From Proales similis (taxonomy: Eukaryota > Rotifera > Eurotatoria > Ploima > Proalidae): a stretch of DNA of 64,000 bases. A model generated the notes under the pieces. It saw nothing but the letters and a program-made list of their open reading frames with translations. It had not been told where the DNA came from and did not search any database. Made by a program: the position numbers and the translations under genes. The stretch lies in the NCBI GenBank assembly GCA_019059635.1, contig JAGVRJ010000003.1, positions 2,666,001 through 2,730,000 on the forward strand, read 5' to 3'. The first letter of the stretch is position 1, and each line of letters begins with the position of its first letter. Shown one piece after another: positions 10,995-63,625 of this stretch.

Positions 10995-13019
10995 ATGGCC
11001 CTGAATACCACAACGGCCAAAACGCCACCGCCGCATTTCAATTTGCCGTCCTCTTCATGCTCAACGTCGTCGTCGTCATCTTCGTCCGAACCGTCCACAA
11101 CTCTTACGAACACTCCGACAGCAGCTGCAGCAGGCACCAGCCCAATTGAGGGAGCAGAGACCAGCTCGGGAGCAAGCAGTGCATTCAATTGGCAGTTTAT
11201 CGACATCACACAAATTCCAAAGCGACACACAGAGCCCAGCGAGCACGAGGATCTCGTTCTTCTGCTGGACGAAAACATTGAAGCCAGCCGCCTGAAGGAT
11301 GTTCTAAGAGGCGCGGCTCGCTCGCCCAGTCAAGCGATCCGCCGCTTCCTCTGGAAGCGCATTCTCATCACCGACACGGGACAAATGCAAGTCTGCATGG
11401 ACAAATACAACAAAAAGATCGGCGTCCTGTTCGGCAAGCATTTGACGCTCAAGGCCGAACTGCCCGACTTTGTCGACCGTCAGCATCTCGTGTTCTATTA
11501 CTTGAACGAAGAAGGAAAGGCGGCCGTCTGTCGAGTGCTCAACGTGCTGGCCTCGGTCCATCCGGATATAACGTTTGCGCCACTGCTGCTGCCTCTGGCC
11601 AGCCTCTTTCTGCACTACATGAGCGAGGCCGAATGCTTTGTTTGTCTGCTGTCAGTTGTCGAGAGCAACAACAAGGTCACGCAGACCGACATCCACTGGA
11701 CCACCACCAATCAAGTGTTCAGACGATTTGCTCAAAAGTACGCGCACGGCGCCTACAACTTTCTGCTCGAGTCGCTCTACCGCAACGAGCCGGAGCTGTG
11801 CCTCGAAGCCCTTGACAACTGGCAGTGGTGGATATTCGAATGGCTGCCGTTTGAGTTTGTGCTCAACATAGTCGACTCCTATTTGCTCGAGGGTCAAAAA
11901 GTGCTCTACAGATTCGGCATCAGCCTGCTGGACCACTTTTACAAAGAGCAAACGAACAAGAACGCCAAGAGCGCCATCATCCGCTCCGAGTGCATGGCCG
12001 AGTTCTGCTCGCGCATCAACGTGCCCGTCGAGTCGGTGGTGAAGACCGCGTTCGGCTACAGGAACATGAGCCGCAAGGACATTGACAGCTTGTTTCAGAG
12101 CGAGGAGAAGCTGATTAAAAAGATGCGATCGGTAAAATCGAGCGACGAGCTACGCTACACCCGGCTCAAGAACGAACTTGCCAGCACACACGGCTACAGA
12201 AAGCGATTCTACTCGTCGATCATCTCACCGCTGCTAAGGTCCAACGTGATCGAAGAGAACGCGGTAGTGGACACCGAACGCGACAAATTGGACGCCGAGC
12301 CCAAGGGCTGGCTCAGCTCACTGAAACGCGGCCTTGGCGCGCCAAAACGTTTGCACGTGAGCGGACGCGAAGTGACACGCTCGACCTCGTTCTATCAGCA
12401 TCACTTTCCGCAGAGCAACATAAACTTGCCCTCGTTCAGCGTGGAGAACACCGGCTCCAGCATCCTCACGCCCGAACAGATCACTTTGCTTTGGCGATGG
12501 CTGCCCACTCGCTACCAAATCCTGCAGCTGCAGTTGATCTACTCAACCAACATTCACGGCTGCCGACTGATGACCTTGTTCGACAAGATCGAATTCTACC
12601 AGGCAAGCATATTGGTGATTATGACCACCACGCGATCAGTGTTCGGCGCTTTTTGCTCCATGCCGTGGAGCGACCGAGTGAATAGTGGCCGGTCGCTTCG
12701 ACCGACCTTCTTCGGCAACGGCGAGTCGTTTTTGTTCGAAATGTCGCCGCGCAAATGCAAGTACGAGTGGGTCGGACGTCGTCTCAACGGACAGACCAAG
12801 CCCGAGCAGGAAATGTTTCAGTTCGCCGACCACGAAAAGCTGATTGTGGGCGGCGGAGCAGATCGCGGATTCGGTTTACTAGTCAACAGCGATCTGGTCT
12901 ATGGACGCACCAGCGAGTCGGAGACGTTCGCCAACTCGATTCTGGGCACGGACAGCGAGTTTGAGATCGCAGTTCTCGAAGTGTTCAGCTTTGACGCCAA
13001 CAGTAACTATCTGGATTGA
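10995..13019 (+). CDS. TBC1D24: TBC1D24 / Skywalker: TBC plus TLDc domain protein
   Basis: Single-exon ORF of 674 aa. In the family, a Rab/ARF6-linked TBC domain and an oxidation-protective TLDc domain act together in synaptic vesicle traffic. A low-complexity Ser/Thr/Ala N-terminus (1-60) precedes the TBC domain (~95-340: AIRRFLWKRILI, then a helical core with WQWWIFEWLPFEFVLNIVDSYLLEG). A basic linker (~380-450) leads to the TLDc domain (~475-670: LLWRWLPTRYQILQLQLIYS, GCRLMTLFDKIE, then FGNGESFLFEM and GGGADRGFGLLVNSDL). TBC plus TLDc in one protein identifies TBC1D24. The first in-frame ATG is at 10995, with a stop not far upstream. Confidence 0.95.
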   Translation: MALNTTTAKTPPPHFNLPSSSCSTSSSSSSSEPSTTLTNTPTAAAAGTSPIEGAETSSGASSAFNWQFIDITQIPKRHTEPSEHEDLVLLLDENIEASRLKDVLRGAARSPSQAIRRFLWKRILITDTGQMQVCMDKYNKKIGVLFGKHLTLKAELPDFVDRQHLVFYYLNEEGKAAVCRVLNVLASVHPDITFAPLLLPLASLFLHYMSEAECFVCLLSVVESNNKVTQTDIHWTTTNQVFRRFAQKYAHGAYNFLLESLYRNEPELCLEALDNWQWWIFEWLPFEFVLNIVDSYLLEGQKVLYRFGISLLDHFYKEQTNKNAKSAIIRSECMAEFCSRINVPVESVVKTAFGYRNMSRKDIDSLFQSEEKLIKKMRSVKSSDELRYTRLKNELASTHGYRKRFYSSIISPLLRSNVIEENAVVDTERDKLDAEPKGWLSSLKRGLGAPKRLHVSGREVTRSTSFYQHHFPQSNINLPSFSVENTGSSILTPEQITLLWRWLPTRYQILQLQLIYSTNIHGCRLMTLFDKIEFYQASILVIMTTTRSVFGAFCSMPWSDRVNSGRSLRPTFFGNGESFLFEMSPRKCKYEWVGRRLNGQTKPEQEMFQFADHEKLIVGGGADRGFGLLVNSDLVYGRTSESETFANSILGTDSEFEIAVLEVFSFDANSNYLD

Positions 13020-25366: not shown

Positions 25367-27077
25367 TCATCTCCACAAACGACATGAATTGTCTTTGGAG
25401 CCAGTAATGATCGTATTGCCGTCATAGTTAAAAGCACAGCTGAATATCTCGTCTGTGTGGCCTTCTAAAATCTGTTTGCATTCGCCACTAATGGGGTCCC
25501 AGATGCGGGCGGTTTTATCCGCGCTAGCCGACAGTAGACGAGTTCCCTGTGGATTGAATATTATCTAAATAGACGTAATTAATTGACACTAAATACGTCA
25601 ATGATTTCCATAGGCACCTTTGAAATTTCGCTGTGATGGCCTTCCAATTTGCTAATGAGCTGATGGGTTAAAGCGTTATAGACGCGGATCGTGCAGTCTG
25701 CCGACGCAGTCGCAATCATTCTTCCCGTCAGATCGTAGACTACATCAAGAATCTCGTCCTCGTGTCCGCTCAAGACGCCTACGCACTGGCCGGAACTGGT
25801 GTCCCATATTTTGCACGTCTTGTCCATGCTGCCACTTATCAACGAACTGCCGCCCCAGTTGAACTGGGCGCTGCTTATCTCCGCCCTATGTCCGATCAGA
25901 GTGTGTATTCTTTGGCCACTGTTCACATCCCAAATGGTCAGAGTGTGGTCGAACGAGCCCAAAAACACTTGATCGCCACTCGTGTTGAATCCGAGCGTAA
26001 TCACCTCCGAACTGTGTCCCTTAAACAGCAAATGAGATCTTTGCCAACAACAAAGCCAGATTGGCGGTGCTCACTGCCAGAGTGCATTTCTCTTGTCCGG
26101 TCTCAATGTCCCAGAGCTTGGCCGTGTTGTCCATGCTGCCTGTGGCCAGCAACGTGCTCTGAGGATTAAAACTGACGCAGACTATTTCGGCTTTGTGTCC
26201 GGTGAACGTGTGAAAGCACTTGCCCGAGTCTGTGCTCCACAATTTGCATGTTTTGTCAAACGAGCCCGTCGCTATCTTGTCGCTTGAATCCTGCTCTCAC
26301 ATTTATGTTCAAATGAGCTGATCGCCTTTTGCTTACCCGTAAGGGTTGTTGAAAGAAATGGCGTAGACGACATTACGGTGTCCTTCAAGCGAGTGAAGCT
26401 CCTCGCCTGAGCCGGTGTCCCATACTTTACACGTGCGGTCGTAGCTGCCAGTTATGAAGCTGCTCAAACGTTTTTTATTCTAGCCTTTGACTCAAACGCG
26501 TCTGGTTTCGTACTAACCATGAGCCAGACTTGTTGAAAGCGACGTTTGTGAGCGGAAGTATGTGAGCTCGAAGAACCTAAAATCGTCTCGATAGAAAAGA
26601 TATCCCTCTAAGACTTGGCCTCACTCACCTTGAATAAATAGAAATATTTGTCTTCGGGCGAGGCGATTTTTTCCTGCAGACCTGAATGGGGCAAATTAGA
26701 ATCGCAGGAGATGCAACAAGCGTCGGCCGGCAATTACGTTTTACGAGCTGGACGACTTGATCGCGTCTGTTGCTGGTGACCAGAGGCTCTTTTTCGATTA
26801 TTTCGGTGACCACTTGATCGACATCGGTTCTTGAGATTGGAAAAAACGCAGATTGAACAACTGCAGGTAGTTGACGAATGCCCGAGATGGCTTAAGTTAC
26901 TTGTGATTAAGGTCGAGTAGATCGATGCTCTTCGTCTTGAGGAGACCTTGCTGCTCATACTCAAGTATGATGCCTGAAATAAAACAGCCATGATGATGAA
27001 AACGCCAATTTCAAATTAAGCAGGCAGTGTTGCTCACCTGGTGGATAGTAGCGGAGAAGGAATCGCTTTAGCCGCAT
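25367..27077 (-). CDS. DAW1: DAW1 (WDR69): WD40 dynein-arm assembly/transport factor
   Basis: Nine exons (27077-27038, 26973-26901, 26829-26738, 26681-26629, 26576-26518, 26459-26337, 26282-26075, 26019-25618, 25564-25367) close in phase to 415 aa, the same length I recall for human DAW1. The start [14 protein letters not shown] and the LQEKI...[16 protein letters not shown] region match the family N-terminus. Eight WD repeats follow with GH and WD dipeptides ([30 protein letters not shown]) and end [13 protein letters not shown]1 assists outer-arm dynein delivery into cilia through IFT. It is head to head with the axonemal dynein gene across a promoter with X-boxes. Confidence 0.96.
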
Positions 27078-27162
27078 GCTTATCAAGATGGCTATTCAAG
27101 TCAAAAGAGCTGGAATTTACTTTGAATTTGAGCATAAATAGAAAGGCCAGCTCGAAATAATC

Positions 27163-27176
27163 GTTGCCATGGCAAC
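27163..27176. promoter_or_regulatory. X-box (RFX site), perfect palindrome
   Basis: GTTGCCATGGCAAC: two perfect RFX half-sites with a 2-nt spacer. It lies 86 bp upstream of the DAW1 ATG. This is the classical ciliogenic X-box form. Confidence 0.85.
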
Positions 27177-27375
27177 CCGTTACGTGACCATGCGAGACAA
27201 TTCATCAAATGTTTGCGTTTGAAAAGATAACTGAGAACCGCAGACACGGCAGTGAAGATGATTCGAGTTGGCCAAGAGTAGATTCTATTGCAGTCCCCAT
27301 GTGGCCCGTCGATGATGGTCGCGCTTGCTTTATCAAGTGTATTGACCGTTTAATAGACGAAGCGCTTTGTGAGCA

Positions 27376-27388
27376 GTTGCTAGGCAAC
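27376..27388. promoter_or_regulatory. X-box (RFX site), 1-nt spacer
   Basis: GTTGCTAGGCAAC: half-sites GTTGCT and GGCAAC with a one-base spacer, 209 bp upstream of the dynein ATG. Confidence 0.75.
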
Positions 27389-27596
27389 AAAATTAAACGC
27401 TTCTTGTGTACAGCTTGGTGATTGCGCGTTTGGGAATTTATTCTCTAGAGCTCAAATCGACTCTCAGTCGGATTTCGAACGACCCAAGCGAGCAGTTGAA
27501 CTAAACGCAAACAGTTTAAGATATAAACTAGATAGAAGAGCTGTGCCGCTTTCAGAGTCCTAATCAGTTGGAAGAGAGCAGGCGCAATTTGCAACA

Positions 27597-30500
27597 ATGA
27601 GCTGGAACAAGGCTGGCAAGGGCACGGGCGATCCGGTCGGCAACTTGCCTCGCTTTCCCGACAAACGCCTCAAGCCAGACTGGGCTAAGCTGAGCACCGA
27701 TTTGGTTGACGAGCAGTCCGAGCACAAGGCCGACGAAGCTGTTGAGATCATTCGCCGATTTCAAACAAGTAACGCTCCATCTCTGCTCTGGGACGAGCCA
27801 TTTCACCACGCGATTGAAATTAACGCAGAAAACGCGCGGCCGGGACATGTGAAGGCGAGCGAGGAGAAGAGCGCTCGAAAGCAAGAGGCATTCAAGAAGC
27901 ATAGGGAAGACTTTCGTAAAGCGCTAGTCGACATTCTCGTGTAAACATATTCAATTCAGGCGTTTGGTTTGACGAGAGCAGTCGAGTCTAATATTATTAT
28001 CACTTTGTGTAGGCACGATTCAAGCGAGGAGGCGGCGGCCGGCACGAGCAGTGGACGCGACCCGACTGAGTCGGAGAAGGACCTCCTCAGATACTACTAC
28101 TACATTCACAATGGAATCGACATGGAAAACGTGGCGCCACTCGAGTCGAGTCAAGTGGCGAACATGTTGGGCAAACTGGAGCTCGGACTGAGAAGCAACC
28201 ACACGAGATTGGTGGAGGACTTGGTTGCCGAGACTCGAGACGACTACTTGTTGGGCGTGAAAAAGTCCATAGTTGACTTTGTCTTGCACGATTCGAATCA
28301 AACGGACCAAGACGAGGTGAAGGTCGAACCGTTGGAGCATCGAGCCGAGCTGCTTGTTGTGCCCAAGCCGTGGGAGGACGACTTTTATCGCTCGTTCGAG
28401 CTCGTGTCCAAAAATCTTCATTCAATCAATCCGTGTATTAATCAAGTACTTGAACTTTGGGGCACCCGCTTTCAGTAAGTTTCTCAGTCGCGCTTGGTCA
28501 CTTGATGCCTCAGTCTATTATTTTTTTCCATCATCAAGGAGTCTGAGAATGATCGACACCACCGTGTTCGAAATAGAGCCCAAGCGGCAAGAACGATCGC
28601 GTCAAGAGAAAATGCGCCAAGAACAGATGAAGCAAAGACGAATGCGTCAAGGCCGAAAACCTCAAGAGGCACAGCTCGAAGAGAGCACGCAGTTTGAAGA
28701 GGAGGCCAATTTCAAAGAATCCATGCCCCAGGAGCCGATGGAGCTTCAGAGTTTTCTCAACTCCTGCATCAAAAGCATTGAGTACGCCAAAGAGCAATTG
28801 GCCAAGAAGTAAGCAGCCAAAAGCGTATTTAGAAACTGTCCTGTCTCATTTGCCTCTCCTTCTCTCTCTCTCTTTCTCAAACAGGTGGTTCAGCGAAGTG
28901 CAGAACATTTTCTATCAAGGAAACAAGCGTAAAGAAATTCCGCTGCTCAGCGAACGAAGCAAGCACAAGTCTTTCTTCGACTGCGCCGCCTGTCTCATGA
29001 CATTGAATCTTCAATCACTGACGCTCGAGTCGTTGATCGACTTTGAACGCCTGCTTATCACTCCGCCCGAGTCGACCATTCCCTACGACCATCCAGGTAG
29101 CCCGATTTGACGCCCAGAGCGGTCCGAATGAGCCGGTCTTGACTTGTCTTGTTTACTCAAGGTTTCATCGTTCGACTGATACTCTTCGACAAAGAGATAC
29201 GATTTGAGCCGAATTTTCAAGACTTTGAGGTCTCGTTCGTAAACATGATTGATCTGATAATTAAGAGCACCCAGGGCATACCCCGAGTAGAAACCAAACT
29301 CTACTCTGACTCGGCCGTGCAGGTAAATGTTCAATTCTGCTGAATGGAGACTCGGCCTCACCAAAATGAAATCGACTAGCAACTGAGCGAGCGCAGTAGC
29401 CAGCTGGTGCCAATCATACTGCCCGAAATAATTCAAGAGCATCGAACGGCGCTCATCGAGATGATGAAGAAGGAAAGTCTCGGGCCGATTGGTTACTTGA
29501 AGTCCTACGACAAGTACGAGAGTTTGATATCAAAGCGAGCCGAAGAAGAGGTCGAGCGCTTCTTAAGCGAGCAGCATTCGTTTGTCGAGTACGAGCGAGA
29601 GATAAAGAAATACCAGAAGCTGATCAAAGAGATCACGTACGGAGTGCCACGTAGAGCCAGAGTGGGCATGTTTGAGCTCAACTGCGACGAAGTTGTGCGC
29701 AACTTGAGCAAACGGGCCGATACCATCCTGGGCAAGCTGATGGCCAAAGTGGTCGACGAGCATTTCGCCAAGAACCAATCGCTCTGCAGCGAGTTCGAGA
29801 CAATCGCCGAAAAGTGTCTGACCACGCCGAGCAACACAGCGCATCTGATGGAGCTCAAGGCGGCAGTAGCCAAAGCGCAGGCAGAAACGATGCTCGAGCT
29901 TGAAAAGAAGCTGTTCGAGGCCAGAATGAGACTTGACTTTTTGCTTGACAATTGCACGTTCACTCCTGCGCAGATCAGATCGAACAATCAGACATTTTCC
30001 TGGAACGAGCGCATGCCGCAGATCTTCGAGGACCATCAGCGAATTGTCGAGGAGAAGACAAACGACTTTCAGGAGGCGCTGAAGGAGAAACGCGAACGCT
30101 TCATCGACGAGTTGAACAACTACGCCAAACAAGTCGAAGAGCTGAGTCAATGCGGCGAGCTGCTTGACTTGAACAAATACTACAAGAAAGCGCAGAGTCT
30201 GGAACAGAAGCTGACTCAGGCCAACGAGCGCATTGAGGAGTTCAACGCCGAAGAGGAGGCGTTCGGCTGGGAGACCACTCAGTATCCGCTCCGGCTGCAG
30301 ACCTTCAACACCCTGCAGCCATTCTCAAAACTGTTCGAAATCGGCGTCGAGTTCACCAACAAGCATCGCGATTGGATGGAAGGGCCCATGTACAAGGTCG
30401 ATCCGGACACGGTCGATCAGGATGTGAACAACTACTGGCGTCAGCTGTACAAGCTTGAGCGTCAGTTTCAGAATCAGCCCGTCTCGCGCAAGATGGCCGG

Positions 30501-33500
30501 CAAACTTCGAGGCCAAGTGGACGAGTTCAAAGAGTTCTTGCCGCTGGTCAGCACTCTGTTCAATCCGGGCCTACGCGACCGTCACTGGGATCAAATATCG
30601 GACATAATCGGCTACGAGTTCAAGCCGACAGACGACACCAACCTGCAGAAGATAATCGAGATGAACATCATTGAACTCACGCCCAAGTTCGAGTCGATTA
30701 GCGAGGCGGCCAGCAAAGAGCACTCGCTTGAGAAGGCGATGGAGAAGATGACCAACGAATGGAAGAACATTGAGTTCACGCTGGTGCCCTACAGAGAAAC
30801 AGGCACTCACATTCTCTCTTCAGTGGACGACATTCAGCTGTTGCTCGACGACCATATAGTCAAGGTGCAGACAATGCGCGGCTCGCCCTACATAAAGCCG
30901 TTTGAGACCGAAGTGCTCGAATGGGAGCACACTCTGCTGCTGTTGCAGGAGATTCTCGACGAATGGCTCAAAGTCCAAATGAACTGGCTCTATTTGGAGC
31001 CCATATTCTCCTCGCCGGACATTATGGCCCAGATGCCCGAGGAGGGGCGTCGCTTTGCCACGGTGGACAAGAACTGGAAAGAGACAATGAAACAAGTAAA
31101 GCTCGACTCGCACTGCATGGCCGTGGTCAAGATCGAGAAGATACTCGAACGCTACAAAAAGTCTAGCGAACTGCTCGAGCTCATTCTCAAGGGCCTGAAC
31201 GCCTATCTGGAAAAGAAGCGTCTCTTTTTCCCGCGTTTCTTCTTCCTCTCCAACGAGGAGCTGCTCGAAATCTTGTCCGAGACCAAGGATCCGACTCGAG
31301 TGCAGCCTCACTTGCGCAAGTGTTTCGAAGGAATCGCCGCGGTCGAGTTCACCGAGTCGTTGGACATCACACACATGAAGAGCAGCGAAGGCGAAGTGGT
31401 CGAGCTAAACGACGTCATATCGACGAGCAAAGCCCGTGGCCAAGTTGAAAAGTGGCTCATCGAACTCGAACACGACATGATTGCATCAGTGCGTAAGCGA
31501 ATCAGCGAGGCGCTCACCTCGTACCCGAACGCCAAGCGAGCCGACTGGGTGCGCGCCTGGATGGGCCAAGCAGTTCTGTGTGTGACCGCCTACTACTGGA
31601 CCATGAACATTCACCGTTCGATTCGCGAGGGCCAAAAAGCGCTCGAGGACTATCTCGAGCTCAACAACCAGCAGATAAACGAAATAGTCACTCTGGTGCG
31701 AGGCAAGCTGTCCAAGCAGAATCGAACCACTTTGGGCGCCCTGGTCGTGTTGGACGTACACGCGCGAGACGTACTGGCCAGTCTGGTTGAGAACAAAGTG
31801 TCCACTGAGAACGATTTCATTTGGCTGAGTCAGTTGCGCTACTACTGGGAAGAGGAGAACATGCTCACTCGAATGACGAACGCCTCGCTCAAGTACGGCT
31901 ATGAGTACCTGGGCAACTCAGGCCGACTGGTCATTACCCCGCTGACCGATCGCTGCTACAGAACCTTGTTCAGTGCGCTGCATTTGCATTTGGGCGGCGC
32001 TCCTGAAGGACCGGCCGGAACAGGCAAAACAGAAACGACCAAGGACTTGGCCAAGGCCGTGGCCAAGCAGTGCGTGGTCTTCAACTGCTCTGATGGCCTC
32101 GACTACATTGCGCTGGGCAAATTCTTCAAAGGCTTGGCCTCTTGTGGAGCCTGGTCTTGTTTCGATGAGTTCAATCGAATTGACCTCGAGGTGCTCTCGG
32201 TGGTCGCCCAGCAGATTCTTACCATTCAACGCGGCATTAACAACGGAGCCGAGTCGATATTGTTCGAGGGCACGGATATTAGACTAGATCCGACTTGCGC
32301 TGTATTCATTACCATGAACCCGGGCTATGCAGGCAGATCTGAGCTGCCCGACAATCTCAAGGCCTTGTTCAGACCTGTGGCCATGATGGTCCCAGACTAT
32401 GCAATGATCGCCGAAATCTCACTTTACTCATACGGCTTCATCAATGCACGTCCGCTGTCGGTGAAAATTGTCGCCACTTATCGTCTGTGCTCTGAGCAGC
32501 TGTCCAGTCAGCATCACTACGACTATGGCATGAGAGCAGTCAAGTCGGTGTTGACCGCCGCCGGCAATCTCAAGCTCAAACAGCCAGACGTGAACGAGGA
32601 CATAATCATGCTGCGATCTATAATTGACGTCAACCTTCCCAAATTCTTGTCGCAAGATCTGCCGCTCTTCAACGGCATCACAAGCGACCTGTTCCCTGGC
32701 GTTGTGCTGCCCAAACCAGACTACGCCGTTCTCAATCAGGCGGTCGAAGAGGTCTGCAAGGCGAACAACTTGCAGAACACGGACTTTTTCGTCGAGAAAA
32801 TTCAGCAAATCTATGAAATGATGATCGTACGCCACGGCTTCATGATTGTCGGTGCGCCGTTCGGCGGCAAGACATGCGCTTATAGAACTCTGGCCGGCGC
32901 GCTCGGCCTCGTACACGAGCGAGGCCAAATGGAAGAGAACAAGGTGCAGATTACGGTCATCAATCCAAAGTCAATAACCATGGGACAGCTCTACGGTCAA
33001 TTTGATCCCGTCTCGCACGAGTGGTCTGACGGCATTCTTGCCATCAGCTATCGCCGATTTGCTCAAGACACCACGCCAGACCGTAAATGGCTCATGTTCG
33101 ATGGGCCAGTGGACGCCGTCTGGATTGAGAACATGAACACGGTGCTCGACGACAACAAGAAGCTTTGTCTCATGAGCGGTGAGATCATTCAGCTCTCGCC
33201 GACCACTAACTTGATATTCGAGCCCATGGACTTGGAACAGGCCTCGCCCGCCACCGTCTCTCGCTGCGGAATGATCTATTTAGAGCCGTCGAGTCTTGGC
33301 TGGCGTCCGCTCGTCAAATCGTGGATGAACTTACTGCCCGAGAGTCTCAAGCAAGACAACTACAAGACAGTGCTGAACGACATGTTCGAGCGTTTCATTG
33401 ATCCTTGCCTCCAATACATTCGCAAGGGCGGTCTCAAAGAGCTTGTCGACACGTCAGACTCAAATTTGGTCAAAAGTCTTCTCAATCTGCTCGACTGCCA

Positions 33501-36500
33501 ATTTGACATGTTTCAAGACGCCAAGAAGTTCGCCTACTATGACCCGAAGGAAGTGATCAATTGGCTTGAAGGCATGTTCCTGTTCGCTTTAATTTGGTCT
33601 CTGGGTGCACCGCAGAATGACGACGGCCGAGTGAAATTTGACCTTTTCTTGCGCAAAATACTCGTCGATGAAGTGAACGAGGAGGATAGAAAGAGTCTGG
33701 GCCTTTTAGACAGTGTGCCACCGCCGAGCAAATCATACGCGGTGCTGTTGCCTGAGAAAGGTACCATTTACAACTACCGCTTTGTGCCAGAGAAAGAGGA
33801 AGAGGCAAACGAAGAGGAGGGCGCCAACACTGAGCCCCGCAACAAATACTGGGACCCGTGGAGTCTGGCGCTTGAGAACGTTGGGCCCATTCCCAAAGAC
33901 AGTCTGTTCAACGAAATAATTGTGGAGACCGAGGACACAGTTCGCTACACGCATCTCATGAACATGCTAGTCACTCATCAGAAGCCGGTGCTGTTTGTCG
34001 GACCGACTGGCACTGGCAAGTCGGCCTATGTGACCGAGTATTTGCTGAAGAAAACCGACAAGGCTGTTTACAAGCCGATAATAATCAACTTTTCGGCGCA
34101 AACCTCGTCCAACCAGACACAGGACATAATCATGTCAAAGTTAGACAAGAGACGAAAGGGTCTATTCGGGCCACCTGTGGGCCACAAGTGCATCGTGTTT
34201 GTCGACGATGTGAACATGCCCCAAGTTGAAGTGTACGGAGCACAGCCGCCGATCGAGCTGCTGCGCCAGTGGCTCGACCACTGGAATTGGTACGATCGCA
34301 AAGATCAGGCGAAAATAAATCTGACCGACATCCAGCTCATGTGCGCGATGGGTCCACCTGGCGGCGGACGAAACAAAGTGACGCCTCGATTCTTGCGCCA
34401 CTTCAACATATTGGCCATAAACGAATTCGACGACAGCGCAATGAAGACCATATTCAATCAGATTCTCAACTGGCACATTACAGTCAAAGGCTTCGCCGAG
34501 CCCTTCAGAGAGCTCGTGCCCAAAATAATCAACTCGACCATGTCCGTGTACAAGGAGGCGACCAAAAACCTGCTGCCCACTCCGACCAAGTCTCACTACG
34601 TGTTCAATTTGCGCGACTTCTCGCGTGTCATTCAAGGCCTTACTCTCAGCGAGCCCGACGTTTGTCCGGACGTTTACTCGATGCAGCGCTTGTGGGTTCA
34701 TGAAGTCTATCGAGTGTTTTACGATCGTCTTGTCGACGACTCCGATCGTCAGTGGCTGTTTCAACATGTGGTCGACACGTTCACGCAGCATTTAGGCGAA
34801 AAGTTTCACTCTGTGTTCGCCCATTTGGACGTGAAGCGCACCGGCCAAGTGAGCGACGAAAACATGCGTCGCCTTCTCTTCTGCGACTTTGCCGACCCCA
34901 AGAGTGATAGCAGACGCTACACCGAGGTCGACGACATGGACCTTCTTCGCAAAGTGGTCGAAACTCAACTCGAAGAGTACAACCAGATCAACAAGCGACC
35001 GATGCATTTGGTCATGTTCAGGTAAGCGGCGCCCATCCGCTCGAATCGTTTTACTCGACTGATTCGCAAAATTGCGCAAAAAATTTAGATTCGCCATCGA
35101 GCATGTGAGTCGCATCTCGCGAATCATCAAGCAGCCGCGAAGTCACGCTCTTCTTGTGGGCGTAGGTGGCTCAGGCAGACAGTCGCTCACTCGACTGGCC
35201 GCTCACATGGCCGAGTATGAGCTGTTTCAGGTCGAAATAAGCAAAAGCTACGGCAAGGGCGAATGGCATGAAGATTTGAAGAGAATTCTGCGCAAGGCGA
35301 CCGAGACAGACCAGCACGGCGTGTTCCTCTTCTCCGACTCGCAGATCAAAGACGAGTCGTTCCTTGAAGACATAAACAATTTGCTGAACGCAGGCGAAGT
35401 GCCCAATCTCTACCCGAACGACGAGAAGCAAGAGATCTGCGACAAAATGCGCCAGCTCGATAGACAAAGAGACAAGTCCAAGCAAACGGACGGCTCGCCA
35501 GTGGCCTTGTTCAACATGTTCGTTCAAAGATGCCGAGACCAGCTTCACATCGTTCTGGCCATGAGTCCCATTGGTGAGTCGTTCCGCAATCGACTTCGAA
35601 AATTCCCGTCGCTTGTCAACTGCTGCACAATTGACTGGTTCCAGGTAGACGCTCATTGATTCGCCGCGCTGTTTATTCGCAGCCGCTAATTCGTTTATTT
35701 ATAAAGAAATGGCCCGAAGACGCATTGGAAGCAGTCGCACGTCGAGCGTTCGAAGACGTCGACTTGTCGACCGCTGAGCTGCAAGGCTGCATAGACGCGT
35801 GTCAATACTTTCACGTCTCGACCCAGACGCTCTCGACCAAATATCTGGAACAGCTAGACAGACACAATTACGTAACGCCCACATCTTATCTGGAGTTGAT
35901 CAGCACGTTCAAGGTGCTGCTCGATCAACAGCGACAGTGAGTCAATAAGTTTAGCCGATTCGCCCAGAATATGACTGACTCGTGTTCGCATAGGGCCACA
36001 TTAAAGGCAAAGAGCAGATACGAAGTCGGCTTGGAAAAGCTCGAGTCTGCGGCCAATCAAGTCGCAGACATGCAAGTCGAACTGCGTGAACTTCAGCCAC
36101 AGCTAATTGTCGCCAGCAAAGAAGTAGACGCCAACACCGTCATCGTCGAAAAAGAGTCTGTCGAGGTGGCCAAAGTAGAAAAGGTTGGTTCATGTTTAAT
36201 TTCTACACTACGCTCCTTTGCCGCTCCCAGTGGCCCCCCTCTATCTTGTCTGAGCCTGTCTGGGCCTCATTGCAAAGCTGGCTATTTAAGCGGTGTCGTA
36301 AAGCGACGCTTGTCACTAGAAAGGCAAAATGTCAAGTCTGGTACTGGCAGCCGTCTTGCTGGTTCTCGTGCTTGTTTGGTATTGGCGTCGCTGTGCGACT
36401 AAGCCAGCGGGAGTGAGAGAGGTACCCAAAGGGCCGTTCGCTCTTCCTCTCGTTGGCAACTGTCTGCAGCTCGGATCTCGGCCGCACGAGAAAATGTCCG

Positions 36501-39500
36501 AATGGGCTCGAATCTACGGTCCGATCTACAGTCTCTATCTGGGCAGCCAGAGAGTTGTCGTGCTGAACGGCACGGACGTAATACGTGACGCACTATTGAA
36601 TCATGCGGAAGCGTTCGCCGGTCGGCCTGAGCTCTACATAATTCATGCGACCTTGAAAGGAAAGGGCCTCATTTCGTCGCCCTACAACAAAGACTTTAGC
36701 GAACACAGACGATTCGTAATGAACTCGTTGAACCGATTCGGCCGCCGCCGCAGCAGTCTTGAGCTCAGCTGTCAGCAAACTGTGCAAAAGTTCTTGCAGG
36801 ACTATCGCGAGAAGCTCGACAGCAAGTTCGAGCTGGTCACTCGCAACCTCAAGAACTCTCTGAACCACATCACCTCGCAAAATGTGCTCACAATCACATT
36901 CGGCGACTGTTTCGACACTCACAACCATCTGGGCAGTCTGGTGGGCTTGATAACCGAGAACTTTGAGAACTCGGCGGTCGCCGCCGCGTTCAATTTCATA
37001 CCGGCGCTGCGCATATTCAAAAGCTGCATATTCAAGAACATACACAAGTGCACCGATTTCCTCAACTGTCTCATCGAGCAGCAAGTGCAAAGCCTGGTCA
37101 GCGAACAAGAAGCCGAGCCGCACGTCGAAGCCCACTCATCAAGCTCGAACATAATCGAGTCTTACTTGAAGGAGCTCATGTTGAGTCCGTTTGGCGACGA
37201 AGAGCCAGCGCCGGACGAGAGGCGTCGCGAGTCCGACGCTCAAGTTGTGTTCACCTCGGCGTTTTTGAACTCGAACCGTTTGAGCAAGCGGCGCGAGTCG
37301 GTCGCTCGTCGCTACAAGTCGTTCAGCTTCGATCATTTGAACTCGCTCGTGCAAGACTTGTTCATCGCTGGCACCGAGACTGTTTCGCAGAGTTTACAAT
37401 GGGCTCTCTTCTACGCGGCGTTCTATCCTCACCTGCAAGAGGAGCTCTACGAGCAAATAATCCAAGAGCTCGGCACCGAAAAGCTGCCATCCGAAGCGGA
37501 CCGAGTCGGACTAGGCAAAGTGGAAGCGTTTCTAAATGAGACGATGCGATTTCACTGCGCTGGTCCCATTCTGGTTCCTCGTTCGACTACTGAAGAGGTC
37601 GAGTTCAGAGGTTTTCGATTGGCCGCCAACACGTTCATTCTGGTGAACATGTGGTCGTGTATGCGCGAGCCGGCTTATTGGACAGACCCGAACTCGTTCA
37701 ATCCGCGTCGCTTCTTGGACTCTGACGGCCGATTTGTGAACAAGAATCCGGCCATGATGCCATTCAGTGTGGGCAAGCGCGCTTGCATTGGCGAATCGAT
37801 CGCTCGTCTTCAGCTCTTTCTCATATTCGCCAGTCTCATTCAAAAGTTCGAATTTTCCTACGCGCCCGGTTCGCAGCCGAGAAGCTTGAGAGACCTAAGG
37901 GGGAAACTAGGCATCGGACTCCGACCGCCAGATCTTGCCCTCAGGCTTCGTCTACGTTAGTGTTGTGTTCTAGTTGATTTGGACTCTTCCCGTCGTCGGT
38001 GTCGTCGTTCCAGTTATAGCCAGTTTTGTCAATGCCAAATAAAGCCCGTTCTAGTCGCGTTGCTCACTCTTGCTCGCTTCAGGTGGTCAAAGCCGACGAA
38101 GAGGCGGCCAACGAACAGGCCAAGTTCGCCAAAGCGATCAAGGACGAATGCGATGCCGATTTGGCGCAGGCCATTCCTATTCTCAACTCAGCCTTGGCTG
38201 CTCTGAATACAATCACCCAGAACGTAAGAAGCTTCACGAAATTCAAATTCTGAATCTGTTTACGATGCATTGCCTTTCAGGACATTTCGGTCGTGAAATC
38301 GATGAAAGCACCACCGCCAGGCGTTCGACTGGTCATGGAAGCCGTGTGCGTACTCAAAGGCATCAAGCCAGAGAGGACAACAGATCCGACTGGCAAGAAG
38401 ACAGACGACTACTGGAAACCGTCTCAGAAGCTGCTCGGCGACCTGAAATTCTTGGAAAGCTTGCAGACCTACGACAAGGACAACATCAGCCCGCCGATCA
38501 TGAAGACCATTCGAGACAAGTACATTCCGAATCCGGACTTTGTGCCCGAAAAGATCAAGGTGGCCTCTTCTGCTGCCGAGGGCTTATGCAAATGGGTGCG
38601 TGCCATGGACCAATACGACAAGTGAGTTTGCTCGCCTCACACTCAGACGAATCATTAAACAATTTTCGCCCTCAATAGAGTGGCCAAGGTTGTGGCGCCC
38701 AAAAAGGCCAAGCTGAAGGAAGCCGAAGGCGTTCTAGACGAGGCGATGAAATCGCTTCATGGCAAACAGGCTCAGTTGGCCGAGGTGCAGGCCAAATTGA
38801 AGAAGCTCACTGACGAGCTAGAAGAGAACAAGCAGAAAAAGCAAAAGTTGGAGTTTCAAGTTGACCTGTGCACCAAAAAGCTGGAAAGAGCCGAAGCGCT
38901 TATCGGCGGCCTCGGAGGCGAGAAAATCCGCTGGACTCAGGCAGCCGAAGATTTGGGCAAGAAGTATCTGAATTTGACTGGCGACGTTCTTCTCTCTTCG
39001 GCGATCGTGGCCTATCTTGGCGGCTTCACGGCCGCTTTCCGACAGGTAAGCTTTTCGTTTGCTCCAATTAACCACTGAACCGAGTAAATGGGAGCCAAAC
39101 AGGAGCAAATAAACGACTGGTGTCATGCGGTCAAAGAAAGAAAGCTGCCCGGCTCTGAGCACTTTTCTCTTGTTCAAACACTCGGCGATCCGGTGAAAAT
39201 CCGCTCGTGGAACATCGCCGGTCTGCCCAGCGACACATTCTCGGTGGAGAACGGAATCATTCTGAGGCATGTCAAGACTCTTGCTCGTCTAGCTCGTCAC
39301 TTGATCGAGTTGAGTTTAGCAATGCGCGTCGATGGCCGCTGATGATCGATCCACAAGGTCAAGCGAACAAGTGGATCAAGAACATGGAAAAGCCCAACAA
39401 CTTGTCCGTTATAAAGCTCACCGATCAGGATTATGTCCGTTCGTTGGAAAACTGCATCACGTTCGGCAATCCGGTATGTTCTCGCTTCGAGTTAGCTGTG

Positions 39501-42500
39501 CGTCTCAGTTCAATTTAATTGTTGTTTGCCTCGTTCAAGTGCTTGCTCGAGAACGTGGGCGAAGAGCTCGATCCTCTTCTCGAACCGCTGCTGCTCAAGC
39601 AAACGTTCAAGCAAGGCGGCAGTTTGTGCATCAAACTCGGCGATCAAATAATTGAATATGCGCCCGATTTCCGGTCAGTTCTGCGCAGCCAACAAGGCCT
39701 TGTTTGTTCTCAATTGACGCTGGCATTGTGTTTTTAGATTCTACATCACAACCAAGTACAGAAACCCGCACTATTTACCAGAGACGTCGGTCAAGGTCAC
39801 ATTGCTCAACTTTATGATCACCAGCGAGGGGCTGGACGACCAGCTGCTGGGCATCGTTGTGGCTCGTGAGCGCCCTGAGCTAGAAGAGGAGAAGAACGCG
39901 TTGATTCTTCAGTCGGCGGCCAACAAAAAGTAATTTGACTCGTCAGCTTTAGACTTGAGCCAAGCTCTAAAACTGCTTCGGCCAGACAACTGAAGGAAAT
40001 CGAGGACAAGATATTGGAAGTGCTCTCTTCGTCGGAGGGAAACATTTTAGAGGACGAGACTGCGATAAAGATTCTCTCGTCGTCCAAGCAGCTGTCGAAC
40101 GAAATATCGGAGAAGCAGGTTGGACGATCATTTAAAATGAAATTCGCCACTTTGCTTGGCTGATCACAGCTTGCTCTAGGCGGTGGCCGAGGAGACGGAG
40201 AAGAAAATTGACGAAGCCCGCCTCGGCTATCGATCGATCGCCATTCACAGCACTCTGCTGTTTTTCACCATCGCAGACCTGGCCAACATAGAGCCGATGT
40301 ATCAGTACTCGTTGACATGGTTCGTCAACTTGTTCATCGCATCGATCGACAACTCGGAGAAGAGCGAAGATCTGAGCGTTCGACTCGGCAATCTGCGCGA
40401 CCACTTTACCTACTCGCTCTACTGCGTGGTGTGCCGCTCGCTGTTTGAAAAAGACAAGGTTTGCGCTTTATGACTCCCTGACGCCTATGTGGACTCGTTT
40501 GCTAATCGATGGTGCTTAGCTGCTGTTCTCGTTCTTGCTTTGCATAAATCTGCTCAAGCACGAGAAAAAGGTGAACGAAGAAGAGTGGATGTTCCTGCTG
40601 ACGGGCGGAGTGGGCCTTGACAATCCGCACACGAACCCGACCGCGTGGCTGCCGTCCAAATCGTGGGACGAGATCTGCCGCCTGGACGAGCTGGCCACGT
40701 TCAAGGACATTCGAAAGAAATTCCTCAGTCAAAAAGACCAGTGGAAGAGCGTCTACGACAGTCTAGAGCCGCACAAGGAGCCGTTTCCCGGCGAATGGAA
40801 CGACCTCAAAGAATTCCAGCGCCTCTGCGTGATCAGGTGCGTTCGACCGGACAAGGTCATTCCCATGGTGCAGGCGTTTGTCTCGCAGTTCCTGGGCCGC
40901 AAATACATTGAGCCGCCGCCGTTCAATTTGGCCGAATCCTACAACGACTCGAGTTGTGTCACTCCACTCGTGTTCGTTCTCTCGCCAGGTGGCGATCCGA
41001 TGGCCGCCCTACTCAAGTTCGCCGACGACATGGTAACTGCTCCTGTTTAATTCAAACGCTATCGCATCGGTTCTCTTCAGCTTTCGTCCGCAAAAGGGTT
41101 TCGGCGGCAACAAGCTGAATTCACTTTCGCTTGGCCAAGGCCAGGGCCCGATCGCGCTCAAAATGATCAGCAGCGCGATCAAAGACGGCACTTGGGTGGT
41201 ACTGCAGAACTGTCACTTGGCTGCGTCGTGGATGTCGACGTTGGAGAAAGTGTGCGAAGAGCTCAATCCTGACCAGACTCATCCTGACTTTAGAATCTGG
41301 CTGACCAGCTATCCGTCCGACAAGTTCCCAGTCTCAATATTGCAGAACGGCATCAAAATGACCAACGAGCCGCCCAAGGGTCTTCGTTTCAACATTCTCC
41401 GATCCTATCTGATGGATCCCATCTCAGATCCGGACTTTTTCGGCGCCGCCAAAGACCAGCACTCGTTCAAGAAGATGCTGTTCGGCCTCTGCTTCTTTCA
41501 TGCTCTTGTGCAGGAGCGGCGCAAGTTCGGCCCGATCGGCTGGAACATACCGTACGAGTTCAATGAAACAGATCTGCGCATCTCCGTTCAACAGCTCTCC
41601 ATATTCCTGTCCGAGTACGACGAGGTGCAGTTCGAAGCGCTCAAGTACTTGACCGGCGAGTGCAATTACGGAGGCCGAGTAACCGACTACTGGGATCGTC
41701 GAACCCTGACCACTCTGCTTGAGAAGTTCTATTGTCGCGATCTGGTCGAGAGCGACAGCTACCGATTCGAAGAGAGCGGCGTTTACTATGCGCCGTCGGA
41801 TGGCGACTACGACAGCTATCTCGACTACATACGCAACCTGCCGCTAACGGCCGACCCGGGCGTCTTTGGCATGCACCCGAACGCCGAGATAACAAAAGAT
41901 CAAAACGAGACCAAGCTGCTATTCGACAACATCTTATCGACCCAGGTGAGTAGCTCACACTCTGTCTGAGTGGAGAACCTATCTAACGCGCGCTCTGCAT
42001 TGCTCAGGGTAAAATCGGCGGCGGCGGCGGAGGAGGCAAGAGCACAGACGAGCTCATTGACGGAGTGGCTTCCGACATATTGGAAAAGCTGCCTCGGCCG
42101 TTTGACACCGAAGCTGCGCTCAGACGCTATCCGACCGAGTACAAGCAGAGCATGAACACGGTGCTGGTGCAGGAAATGACTCGATTCAACCGACTGCTGA
42201 TTGTTGTGAGAGCATCGCTGCAAGACATCCGCAAAGCCATCAAGGGTCTGGTGGTGATGAGCGCTGACCTTGAAGAAGTCTTCAACAGCCTCATCACTGG
42301 CAAGATACCGTCAATGTGGATGAAAAAGTCCTATCCGTCGCTGAAGCCGTTGGGCAGCTACGTGAACGATTTCCTCGCCCGACTCAAGTTCTTGCAGGAT
42401 TGGTACAACGATGGACCGCCCAGCTGCTTCTGGGTCTCTGGCTTCTTTTTCACTCAAGCGTTCTTGACCGGCGTGCAGCAGAATTACGCGCGAAAGTACA

Positions 42501-42943
42501 CGATACCGATCGACTTGCTCTCGTTCGACTACGAAGTGCTCGACGACAAAGAGCCGAGTGTGGCGCCCGACGACGGCGCCTACATAAAAGGCCTGTTTGT
42601 GGACGGCGCCCGATGGGACAGAAAGACGCGCAAATTGGCCGAATCGCATCCCAAACAGCTTCAAGACACGATGCCAGTTATGCTTCTGGTGCCAATCAAG
42701 CGCGACGATCTGGAGGAGAAGCCCTGCTACACGGTGCCCGTCTACAAGACGAGCGAGAGAAGAGGAGTACTCTCCACAACCGGCCACAGCACCAACTTTG
42801 TCATCGCCATGCGTCTTCCCTCTGACAAGCCTGAGAGCCACTGGATCGGACGAGGTAAGCCACGCGACTTTGATCAATGCACTGAGGCTTAAAATTGCAT
42901 TTTCAATTAAGGCGTAGCGCTATTGTGCCAGTTGGACAATTAG
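27597..42943 (+). CDS. Axonemal inner-arm dynein heavy chain (DNAH3/7/12 type)
   Basis: Motor of motile cilia. I place 22 exons: 27597-27940, 28013-28474, 28539-28808, 28885-29096, 29162-29322, 29380-35021, 35089-35644, 35707-35936, 35994-36183, 38083-38223, 38281-38621, 38679-39045, 39103-39266, 39320-39473, 39540-39673, 39738-39929, 39986-40118, 40180-40458, 40520-41032, 41097-41945, 42008-42854 and 42912-42943. They sum to 4070 aa with all phases closed. P-loops: AAA1 GPAGTGKT (~1360), AAA2 GAPFGGKT (~1640), AAA3 GPTGTGKS (~2025), AAA4 GVGGSGRQS (~2390). A coiled-coil stalk with microtubule-binding tip follows, and the C-terminus reads [15 protein letters not shown]. Length and the short tail fit the single-headed group. 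Exon 6 is 5.6 kb. Intron 36184-38082 contains a P450 gene. The intron after 39266 has a GC donor. Confidence 0.95.
36283..36290 (+). promoter_or_regulatory. TATA-like box of the nested P450 gene
   Basis: TATTTAAG lies 39 nt upstream of the P450 ATG, inside the dynein intron. A start site 25-30 nt downstream would leave a 5' UTR of about 10-15 nt. Confidence 0.5.
36329..37960 (+). CDS. Cytochrome P450, CYP2 clan, nested in a dynein intron
   Basis: Intronless, 543 aa, same strand as the host gene. It is a microsomal haem monooxygenase. An N-terminal membrane anchor ([16 protein letters not shown]) is followed by the Pro-rich hinge [13 protein letters not shown]. The I-helix oxygen-activation motif AGTETV, the K-helix ExxR (ETMR), the FNPRRF 'PERF' region and the haem-binding loop [11 protein letters not shown] with the Cys ligand are all intact. 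The WxxxR-type C-helix region reads [10 protein letters not shown]. The substrate is unknown. A variable Ser/Glu-rich insert (~262-310) precedes the I-helix. It has its own TATA-like box and an AATAAA at 38038, so it should be transcribed separately from the dynein gene. Confidence 0.93.
   Translation: MSSLVLAAVLLVLVLVWYWRRCATKPAGVREVPKGPFALPLVGNCLQLGSRPHEKMSEWARIYGPIYSLYLGSQRVVVLNGTDVIRDALLNHAEAFAGRPELYIIHATLKGKGLISSPYNKDFSEHRRFVMNSLNRFGRRRSSLELSCQQTVQKFLQDYREKLDSKFELVTRNLKNSLNHITSQNVLTITFGDCFDTHNHLGSLVGLITENFENSAVAAAFNFIPALRIFKSCIFKNIHKCTDFLNCLIEQQVQSLVSEQEAEPHVEAHSSSSNIIESYLKELMLSPFGDEEPAPDERRRESDAQVVFTSAFLNSNRLSKRRESVARRYKSFSFDHLNSLVQDLFIAGTETVSQSLQWALFYAAFYPHLQEELYEQIIQELGTEKLPSEADRVGLGKVEAFLNETMRFHCAGPILVPRSTTEEVEFRGFRLAANTFILVNMWSCMREPAYWTDPNSFNPRRFLDSDGRFVNKNPAMMPFSVGKRACIGESIARLQLFLIFASLIQKFEFSYAPGSQPRSLRDLRGKLGIGLRPPDLALRLRLR
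38038..38043 (+). terminator. Poly(A) signal of the nested P450 gene
   Basis: AATAAA 78 nt after the P450 stop and about 40 nt before the dynein splice acceptor at 38082. Dynein pre-mRNA must ignore it. Confidence 0.65.
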
Positions 42944-61162: not shown

Positions 61163-62100
61163 TTAAACTTGACTGCAAGGGGCTGGCTGGCTTGCCGAAC
61201 TCTGTCCGGCCTCTTCAGTGTTCGTTGAGGTTTGGATCGACTTGCTGCCGGCCGGAAACAGGTCCTGGTAGTCGGGCGGCTTGTCTTCGGTCAGCGGATC
61301 GTTCGCATTCGCATCCACGTTGCCGTTTAAAGCAGATCCTTTTAGAGTTGAATTATTCGGAAGTGGAATTTTGGCTTCGAAATCGAAATTTTGAGTACCT
61401 TGCGCGTAGACGGGAACGGGCCGAGGGGTGTCTGAGCCATATTTCGATGAAATCTTGGAATCGAACAAAAAGTCCAAGTCAACTTACCGCTGAAGAAGTC
61501 GGTGTGATCGCCCCATCGACGGTTTATGTAATTGGCCACGTAGGTGAACACGATCAGAACGAAGAACAAGAGCAAGAGTCCGAGAGTGGTGGGCACAATT
61601 CGCCAATGATGGGTTTGGTGCGCCATCTCGGTCTCGCTCTCGCTCGGGTCGCTGGCGTCTATGAAACTGACGTCCAGCAAGCGTTTGTGCTTCTCGCTTG
61701 TGAACCAGCAGTCGCATGTGAACACGTAGACGTTGCCGTCAGGGTCGTGCAGCTCGGCTTTGAGCAGATTCCAGTCGTTGAAGAACGAAACTGAATGCTG
61801 CTTGACAATCACGATCGATTTTATGTGGCCAATACGATCGCGGTCCAGTTTGCCGAGTAGAAAGCGATCGATCGAGTTGGCTTCTAACTGGCCTCGGGAC
61901 GGGCTTATGCGAACGATTGGCGAGTTGCCCTTTTCGCCCAGGATCTCAATGAACACCACCGAGTTGGTACCGGCCCAGAGCTTCACTCCAGTGTAGAACA
62001 CAATGGACCATTCACCGTCGCATGACCCGATGCCAATTTTACTTAGCAAGAGAACCAGAGCGAACAGCGCATTGAGCACCGGACTCCCATTCGCATTCAT
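61163..62100 (-). CDS. PLAT/LH2-domain single-pass membrane protein with a cytoplasmic PPxY motif
   Basis: Exons 62100-61488 and 61338-61163 give 262 aa. The ATG at 62100 begins a signal peptide (ALFALVLLLSKIGIG). An extracellular PLAT domain follows (~30-150: WSIVFYTGVKLWAGTNSVVFIEILG, then RIGHIKSIVIVKQ and VYVFTCDCWF). A transmembrane helix (LGLLLLFFVLIVFTYVANYI) and a short tail with KPPDYQDLF come next. PLAT domains bind lipid or protein partners at membranes (lipoxygenases, polycystin-1, LOXHD1). A one-domain type I version is not a family I can name. The second intron region is uncertain: 61487-61339 could contain a small in-frame exon ending PVYAQ. Confidence 0.7.
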
Positions 62101-62467
62101 TTGTGTGCAATCATTCACCTCTGCTCGGTCTGGTGGCCTCTCGCTCTCCTTCTCTCTCTCTGCCTTCGAGTGCGGCTCTGAACGGCCCGAATAATTATGA
62201 AACTCTAATGACGGCGCATAAAGCGCCATCAACTGTCTTAACCGTGTGGTCCAAAGTTTGCCTTCACCTCCTTCAAATATAGGCACCGACCGAACCGTCT
62301 TGCTGGCCAGTTCGGTCCGACTAGCAGCGACTGGCGAAATGCGCTCCAACAGGCCTCGAGCGAGTAGGAATAGTAGAGCAATGCAAATCGCAGCAAAGGT
62401 TAGCTGAATTATGAGGTGTGGCCCGCATCGAGCTGACGTTTGACGTCAATCTCATTTAGGCGTAACG
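62101..62467. promoter_or_regulatory. Divergent promoter region PLAT protein (-) / Golgin-45 (+)
   Basis: A 367-bp gap between two divergent starts. The minus frame stays open upstream of the PLAT start but reads as unstructured Arg/Glu-rich sequence. No X-box or TATA box seen. Confidence 0.45.
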
Positions 62468-63625
62468 ATGAGAAAACGAGAGGTGCTCTGGGAGCCGTAC
62501 AAGGCTGCCACTCTGAACTCGGCCGTTCTTCAAGAGCACGTGAGCGATTCGCGCGCCCAGCTCATCAAGTACGAGCCGGCAGTTGAGCTCACCTCCAAGC
62601 AAGAGGCGTTGTCGGCGCGCACAAAAACTCGCCTGGCCGTCGAGGAGTTTGGCGACGCAGGGCCGCAGTTTCTGGACGCTCGCTTCTACACAGAGGCCGA
62701 TCTGAATCGAATGGCCAGTGTGCTGAAGAAAAGGGCCGAGGGCGGCGAGACGGTGAGCAAGCCGGTGAACGTGGTCGAGCCGATGCCGCAGAAATCGGTC
62801 GACTTTGTGACAGAGAACGAGCGACTGCGCGCCCAAGTCGAGTATCTTCAGTCGCAAATAGAGGGCATGAGCGAACAGCTTCAGATTCAGAGCCAGGTGA
62901 ACGTGGAGCTGAAGAAGATGCTGATCGCGCAGATGGGCGGCGAAGAGTCGCACTACAAAATGGAGCGCATGATAAACGACAAGCAGCGCCTAGAGATCGA
63001 ACTGGACAAGTACTCGAAGCAGATGGACAAGGCGAGCGAGGACCTCGAGCAGATCAAGATTCAATGCGACCTCTGGCGCAGCAAGTACTTGGCCACCAAG
63101 ATGATGAGCGAGGAGGCACTTGTCTGGAAGCGGTTCTTGCACATGCTCAACGAACAAAACCAAAAGTGCATGCAAGCCCTGCTCGACGACAATGCCGTTC
63201 TGAACCGAAAGTTGAACGAGGCTATTCAAGCGCTTAGAGGCTCGAGCGGTGAGCCGCTCTGCCTCAACAATCTTCAAGCTTCGAACGTGCTTCTCAGTCT
63301 GTTGAATCTGAACGTCAAGTCAGAGACGGCAGTGGGCAGCCGTCACAAACGACGCGCCAGTCTTCGCTCAGAGTGTACAATCAGCGAGCTGAGGGCCATC
63401 CATTTAGTCGATCAGTTTGAATGGGTGCATGAGCATTTGAAGCTGGTGAAAGACGGCGACCAGGCGCCCATCAATTCACTTGACCAACTCGAGCATCTCA
63501 TCGAACGCATCAAGACCGACCGCTTGAACAAGTTCACTCGTTTGTTTGAGAGCGTGAACAAGTCCGAGCTGGAGCTGCTGGCCAACATTTGCTCTAGATG
63601 CAACGGTCGACTCCAAATTGTGTGA
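62468..63625 (+). CDS. BLZF1: Golgin-45 (BLZF1), GRASP55-binding Golgi coiled-coil protein
   Basis: Intronless, 385 aa. Golgin-45 tethers medial-Golgi membranes by binding GRASP55 and Rab2. The coiled-coil core (~115-260) includes VNVELKKMLIAQMGGEESHY, ERMINDKQRLEIELDKY and IKIQCDLWRSKYLATKMMSEE. These align with human VNRELKKLLVASVGDDLQYH and IQCDVWRSKFLASRVMADE. The last residues, ICSRCNGRLQIV, match the human CNHCRGELIAL ending: a CxxC plus hydrophobic C-terminus that docks into the GRASP55 PDZ groove. The N-terminal 110 residues are family-divergent. Confidence 0.9.
   Translation: MRKREVLWEPYKAATLNSAVLQEHVSDSRAQLIKYEPAVELTSKQEALSARTKTRLAVEEFGDAGPQFLDARFYTEADLNRMASVLKKRAEGGETVSKPVNVVEPMPQKSVDFVTENERLRAQVEYLQSQIEGMSEQLQIQSQVNVELKKMLIAQMGGEESHYKMERMINDKQRLEIELDKYSKQMDKASEDLEQIKIQCDLWRSKYLATKMMSEEALVWKRFLHMLNEQNQKCMQALLDDNAVLNRKLNEAIQALRGSSGEPLCLNNLQASNVLLSLLNLNVKSETAVGSRHKRRASLRSECTISELRAIHLVDQFEWVHEHLKLVKDGDQAPINSLDQLEHLIERIKTDRLNKFTRLFESVNKSELELLANICSRCNGRLQIV

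Follow-up and report, generated by a model that had tools for sequence, protein, structure and literature searches.

Two X-boxes between the head-to-head ciliary genes DAW1 and DNAH7 of the rotifer Proales similis: probably one RFX box for each gene

When two ciliary genes diverge from a short stretch of DNA that holds two X-boxes, it may be asked whether that stretch is a single shared promoter driving both genes as a unit, or two promoters standing back to back. The locus that raises this question in Proales similis lies in a window of 64,000 nucleotides, the whole stretch of DNA that was analyzed (C3:2666001-2730000; the genome is 32.7 Mb in 15 contigs, 32,716,893 bp in total), where the start codons of DAW1 (27077, minus strand) and of a DNAH7-class axonemal dynein heavy chain (27597, plus strand) have exactly 519 bp between them. 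A first-pass annotation of this DNA had placed DAW1 and an axonemal dynein on either side of a 519 bp interval with boxes at 27163 and 27376, and had proposed that both genes are co-driven from it; the positions and the genes are confirmed here. The features are as follows (window coordinates).

27078..27596, no strand: intergenic stretch from start codon to start codon, 519 bp, 43.7% G+C
25367..27077, minus strand: DAW1 (ODA16/WDR69), coding part, 9 exons, 415 aa; from a spliced model and a structure match
27597..42889, plus strand: DNAH7-class axonemal dynein heavy chain, many exons; from similarity and domains
27163..27176, no strand: X-box 1, perfect palindrome GTTGCCATGGCAAC; 86 bp to the DAW1 ATG, 421 bp to the dynein ATG
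27376..27388, plus strand: X-box 2, GTTGCTAGGCAAC; 209 bp to the dynein ATG, 299 bp to the DAW1 ATG
27134..27140, minus strand: TATA-like TATTTAT, 63 bp to the DAW1 start codon; weak, without chance comparison
27522..27527, plus strand: TATAAA, 75 bp to the dynein start codon; weak, without chance comparison

The exons of DAW1 were spliced in this analysis from the window sequence, and all eight introns of the model are GT-AG. In a search against solved structures, residues 1-415 of the model aligned with 1-415 of the DAW1 structure 5nnz (690 bits), followed by the DAW1 structure 5mzh (622 bits); the best match other than DAW1 was the WD-40 repeat protein 2ymu (388 bits), i.e., full-length similarity to DAW1/ODA16 exceeds that to other WD40 proteins. 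The dynein is nearest to DNAH7 among solved heavy chains, as judged from a single 1880-aa exon without a tree; two DNAH7 chains stand on top for this long exon (2754 and 2749 bits), followed by DNAH12 (2089 bits), and dynein motor domains together with a dynein C-terminal domain extend the gene to 42889. In its first exon the open frame begins at 27564 and the ATG lies at 27597; thus a stop is located just upstream of that ATG. The DNAH7 intron at about 36184-38083 contains, on the strand of the host gene, a cytochrome P450 gene without introns (545 aa, PF00067, E 9e-92; window 36323-37960, plus strand), with its own AATAAA behind it. Farther along the window two long open frames diverge with nearly no gap (61345-62445, minus, and 62447-63622, plus), the minus frame carrying a PLAT domain and the plus frame having no family match.

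Both boxes had been described as near-ideal RFX sites, and both do conform to the X-box consensus GTNRCC N0-3 RGYAAC (PMC10530576): X-box 1 reads GTTGCC-AT-GGCAAC, and X-box 2 reads GTTGCC-T-AGCAAC on the minus strand, its reverse complement GTTGCCTAGCAAC agreeing with the same consensus. The RFX motif scan that had been suggested bears this description out: within the 64 kb, GTTGCN{0,3}GGCAAC matches three times, and every match belongs to one of the two boxes (the palindrome is scored on both strands, so that two sites give three matches), against 0.15 expected, and none of 100 shuffles reaches three. With at most one mismatch and a spacer of 1-2 bases there is no further site in the 64 kb window; allowing a 3-base spacer adds one, at 11655. 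Scanning the window for the palindrome with up to three mismatches was not informative (2 matches vs. 2.92 expected), and for want of any excess over shuffles this result was dropped as strong evidence.

The boxes lie 86 and 209 bp from the start codons of their near genes, inside a limit of about 250 bp. In C. elegans X-boxes are preferentially placed at -50 to -200 bp, and most of the known ones lie within 250 bp (PMC1794439). Since the crosswise distances are 299 and 421 bp, each box is placed where a private box would be. Each box is separated from the gene nearest to it by a TATA-like element, and these two elements stand 382 bp apart. Within the X-box 1 palindrome, GCCATGG provides an ATG on each strand, and the 17-codon frames that open there stop before either gene; a transcript begun upstream of this ATG would therefore include a short frame ahead of the gene, a hint that DAW1 transcription may start downstream of X-box 1. 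Each of the 25 exact palindromes in the genome has the spacer AT by definition of the pattern, and hence GCCATGG on both strands; two-base spacers other than AT are few among the 50 wider-pattern places listed.

Across the genome GTTGCCATGGCAAC occurs in 25 exact copies and GTTGCTAGGCAAC in 19, vs. none for either pattern reversed, and the wider pattern GTTGCYN{0,2}RGCAAC has 89 matches vs. 19 for its reversed form; this excess over reversed patterns rules out chance motifs. Pairing of boxes is rare. When 68 of the 89 wider-pattern places were compared, the DAW1-DNAH7 pair alone fell within 1 kb, the next spacing being 4.4 kb, and a second box with one mismatch was present at one of 49 other motif loci, within a predicted coding frame. 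Ten control loci contain two one-mismatch boxes vs. two extra boxes in 50 motif loci, one of which is the second box of the DAW1-DNAH7 promoter, i.e., the control loci are not poorer. As for individual places, the box at locus L007 apparently lies inside a minus-strand gene, and that at L026 overlaps a predicted frame that is weak.

Since the DAW1-DNAH7 promoter holds two of them, the 44 exact copies of GTTGCCATGGCAAC and GTTGCTAGGCAAC amount to 43 regions. For all 42 other regions, 1.2-1.5 kb on each side was taken and the predicted coding pieces were searched with Pfam and further tools. By all tools, a ciliary protein was named at 15 of the 43 regions, showing that the motif does lie beside ciliary genes:

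Window: DAW1/DNAH7
L002: AKAP28
L006: BROMI and HYDIN
L013: ARL13B
L017: DNAH3
L022: DYNC2LI1
L025: CFAP263
L034: IFT56
L038: CFAP206
L039: PPIL6
L040: SPATA6
L042: WDR35/IFT121
L043: IFT140
L047: B9 protein
L050: TPGS1

The weakest of these names are TPGS1 (26.7 bits, cut-off 27), PPIL6 (E 5.7e-5) and CFAP206 (E 5.8e-4). At the other 28 of the 43 regions the tools named no ciliary gene, and some of these have only general or non-ciliary names, e.g., UPF2 (L024), ubiquitin-conjugating enzymes, kinases, WW, ankyrin, RRM and tubulin. An IFT27-like protein (L021) is demonstrable only as a member of the Ras family, and AK8 (L018), DYNC2I1/WDR60 (L012), androglobin (L028) and others, suggested by their translations without tool support, were left uncounted.

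As a control, 10 of the 19 reversed-motif sites were taken and searched with Pfam only, and a ciliary family was found at none of the ten. This control is weak: six of its ten sites lie over predicted coding frames, it is not promoter-matched, and fewer tools were applied to it than to the motif regions. The contrast between motif regions and control sites is 8 of 43 vs. 0 of 10 by Pfam only (Fisher p 0.16) and 15 of 43 vs. 0 of 10 when all tools are counted for the motif regions and Pfam only for the control (Fisher p 0.024). With assumed genomic percentages, the chance of at least 14 ciliary regions among 43 is 1e-7 if 3% of genes are ciliary and 0.004 if 8% are. The excess of the motif itself is independent of the reversed-site gene control.

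A factor suited to the boxes appears to be encoded as well. A strong RFX DNA-binding domain (114.7 bits) occurs at C3:1355759 in the same frame as an RFX BCD domain, and this gene is likely the ciliary RFX gene of Proales similis. A second match to the RFX DNA-binding domain is weak (26.8 bits, C9:92378), in a frame that is presumably ARID2-like. RFX control of ciliary genes predates animals (PMC10530576). A literature search, with most subscription journals outside it, turned up no paper on RFX control in rotifers (in the accessible part of PMC13331133 rotifers appear only as food and in husbandry) and no published case of DAW1-DNAH7 adjacency or synteny.

Taken together, the fit to the consensus, the genome-wide motif excess, the flanking ciliary genes and the presence of an RFX gene make RFX control of DAW1 and DNAH7 likely. 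That the motifs play no part in regulating the ciliary genes of Proales similis is scarcely credible: the 28 regions without a named ciliary gene would be expected under such a reading, and against it stand the motif excess, the adjoining IFT, axonemal and transition-zone genes, and the RFX gene. It is also very unlikely that only one box works, with the other matching by chance or as a relic. About 19 of the 89 wider-pattern matches are expected to be background, as judged from the reversed control, and would allow for such a box; however, with 25 and 19 exact copies vs. none reversed, an exact copy of either sequence can rarely be background.

The proposal that the 519 bp form a shared bidirectional module, in which the two boxes act jointly on both genes, perhaps through bridging RFX dimers, and in which selection has kept the pair together so that the expression of a dynein and of its delivery factor is raised in concert, deserves closer consideration and is nonetheless judged unlikely. 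In its favor are the two perfect boxes within 519 bp, no other two boxes being closer than 1 kb among the places compared; the symmetry of the palindrome, which gives it no direction; the ciliary nature of both genes; the BROMI-HYDIN pair, a second ciliary pair that flanks an X-box; and the bridging by RFX dimers that has been proposed in Xenopus (PMC5245798). Against it, between about 1.5 and 11 divergent ciliary pairs are expected under random gene order (with 300-700 ciliary genes in a total of 10,785 or 14,641; the figure 14,641 comes from PMC11954553, and the others are assumed), and about 2.4 to 8 two-box promoters are expected by chance (70 above-background boxes over an assumed 300-1000 promoters), so that one case is no excess.

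The other head-to-head X-box pairs also speak against a shared module. Tools gave names to both members of five such pairs: in two of them both genes are ciliary (DAW1-DNAH7, and BROMI-HYDIN at L006), and in three the ciliary gene has a non-ciliary partner (TFIIA-CFAP206, L038; B9-ANAPC13, L047; and DNAH10-2OG-Fe(II) oxygenase, L010, the oxygenase being a weak domain match below the cut-off). At L006 (C1:2332657) BROMI/TBC1D32 and HYDIN flank a single X-box, with the likely BROMI start some 8 bp away and that of HYDIN some 740 bp, as inferred from the sequence; the predicted BROMI frame extends into this box. Two anaphase-promoting complex subunits, ANAPC4 (L018) and ANAPC13 (L047), stand head to head with X-box genes, probably by coincidence. 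DNAH3 (L017) and DNAH10 (L010, box GTTGCTTAGCAAC) each have an exact X-box and no tool-named ciliary partner opposite, and thus an X-box at a dynein gene does not require a ciliary partner. The upstream stretches searched for eight other dynein heavy chain genes contained no exact X-box but favor neither view, several of them lying inside coding exons and probably short of the start codon; the best sites there have one mismatch each (L053, GTTGCTATGGCTAC; L058, in a predicted coding frame).

The functional argument for a joint unit is also looser than had been supposed. DNAH7 is an inner-arm heavy chain. Inner arms with a single heavy chain are monomeric (PMC8754002, the available main text of which does not mention DNAH7 by name), and ODA16/DAW1 is described as bridging outer dynein arms and IFT46 and making outer-arm import more efficient (PMC9270974). 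The first-pass annotation had spoken of a motor and the factor that helps to deliver it; a dynein and an arm-import factor are indeed present, but with an outer-arm factor beside an inner-arm chain the pair does not combine a motor with a factor known to deliver it. The most far-reaching form of the module, i.e., a selected RFX bidirectional promoter, old in monogonont rotifers, with X-boxes 199 bp apart bridged by RFX dimers and supplying the inner-arm motor and DAW1 in fixed proportion, is more doubtful still and appears improbable. Were it true, DAW1 would serve inner-arm delivery too in rotifers.

The better explanation is therefore probably that two neighboring ciliary genes have back-to-back promoters, each with its own RFX X-box. 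In cells that assemble motile cilia, a dimer of the rotifer RFX protein would bind the palindrome at 27163 and increase the expression of DAW1, and binding of such a dimer to the box at 27376 would do so for the DNAH7 gene. Under this explanation any co-expression of DAW1 and DNAH7 would follow from their both belonging to the proposed RFX ciliary regulon, and in a compact genome it is not surprising that the two genes lie side by side. That RFX binds and activates here, that the genes are co-expressed, and to which gene each box belongs is inferred from the DNA. Of the co-driven unit first proposed, the part that holds is that both genes are probably RFX targets, since the motif marks ciliary genes in this genome; one shared promoter or special unit is less likely, because the layout fits one box per gene, three of the five pairs are mixed, and chance suffices. 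The DAW1-DNAH7 promoter thus looks like an ordinary, clean case of known RFX cilia control and not a novel shared switch, and yet the doubled box could be special, given that no other two boxes lie within 1 kb of each other at the 68 of 89 places compared. The locus offers a neat test case for joint drive of a head-to-head ciliary pair vs. one box for each gene. More generally, a compact genome with near-perfect X-boxes that can be searched by pattern makes the rotifer ciliary regulon readable from DNA, and the remaining boxes provide a route to unnamed ciliary genes beside them.

Comparison with known systems comports with this assessment. In the RFX X-box system of C. elegans, and of Salpingoeca rosetta with its cRFXa, the consensus is the same as that of the DAW1-DNAH7 boxes (PMC10530576), and closeness to start codons is common to the known and the rotifer boxes (PMC1794439). 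Known and rotifer boxes alike adjoin IFT, axonemal and transition-zone genes; the difference lies in the rotifer host. The statement that such a unit was not known from model animals was too strong, as two comparable arrangements have already been described. Cep290 of Xenopus is likewise a ciliary gene with a probable bidirectional promoter, bound by multiciliated-cell factors (PMC5245798, figure legend, where the partner gene is not named). TMEM138 and TMEM216 of vertebrates are also neighboring ciliary genes, with expression tied to the intervening non-coding stretch and to RFX4 (PMC12148096); however, they lie head to tail over about 23 kb and their co-expression has been measured, whereas DAW1 and DNAH7 stand head to head across 519 bp and their co-expression is a prediction.
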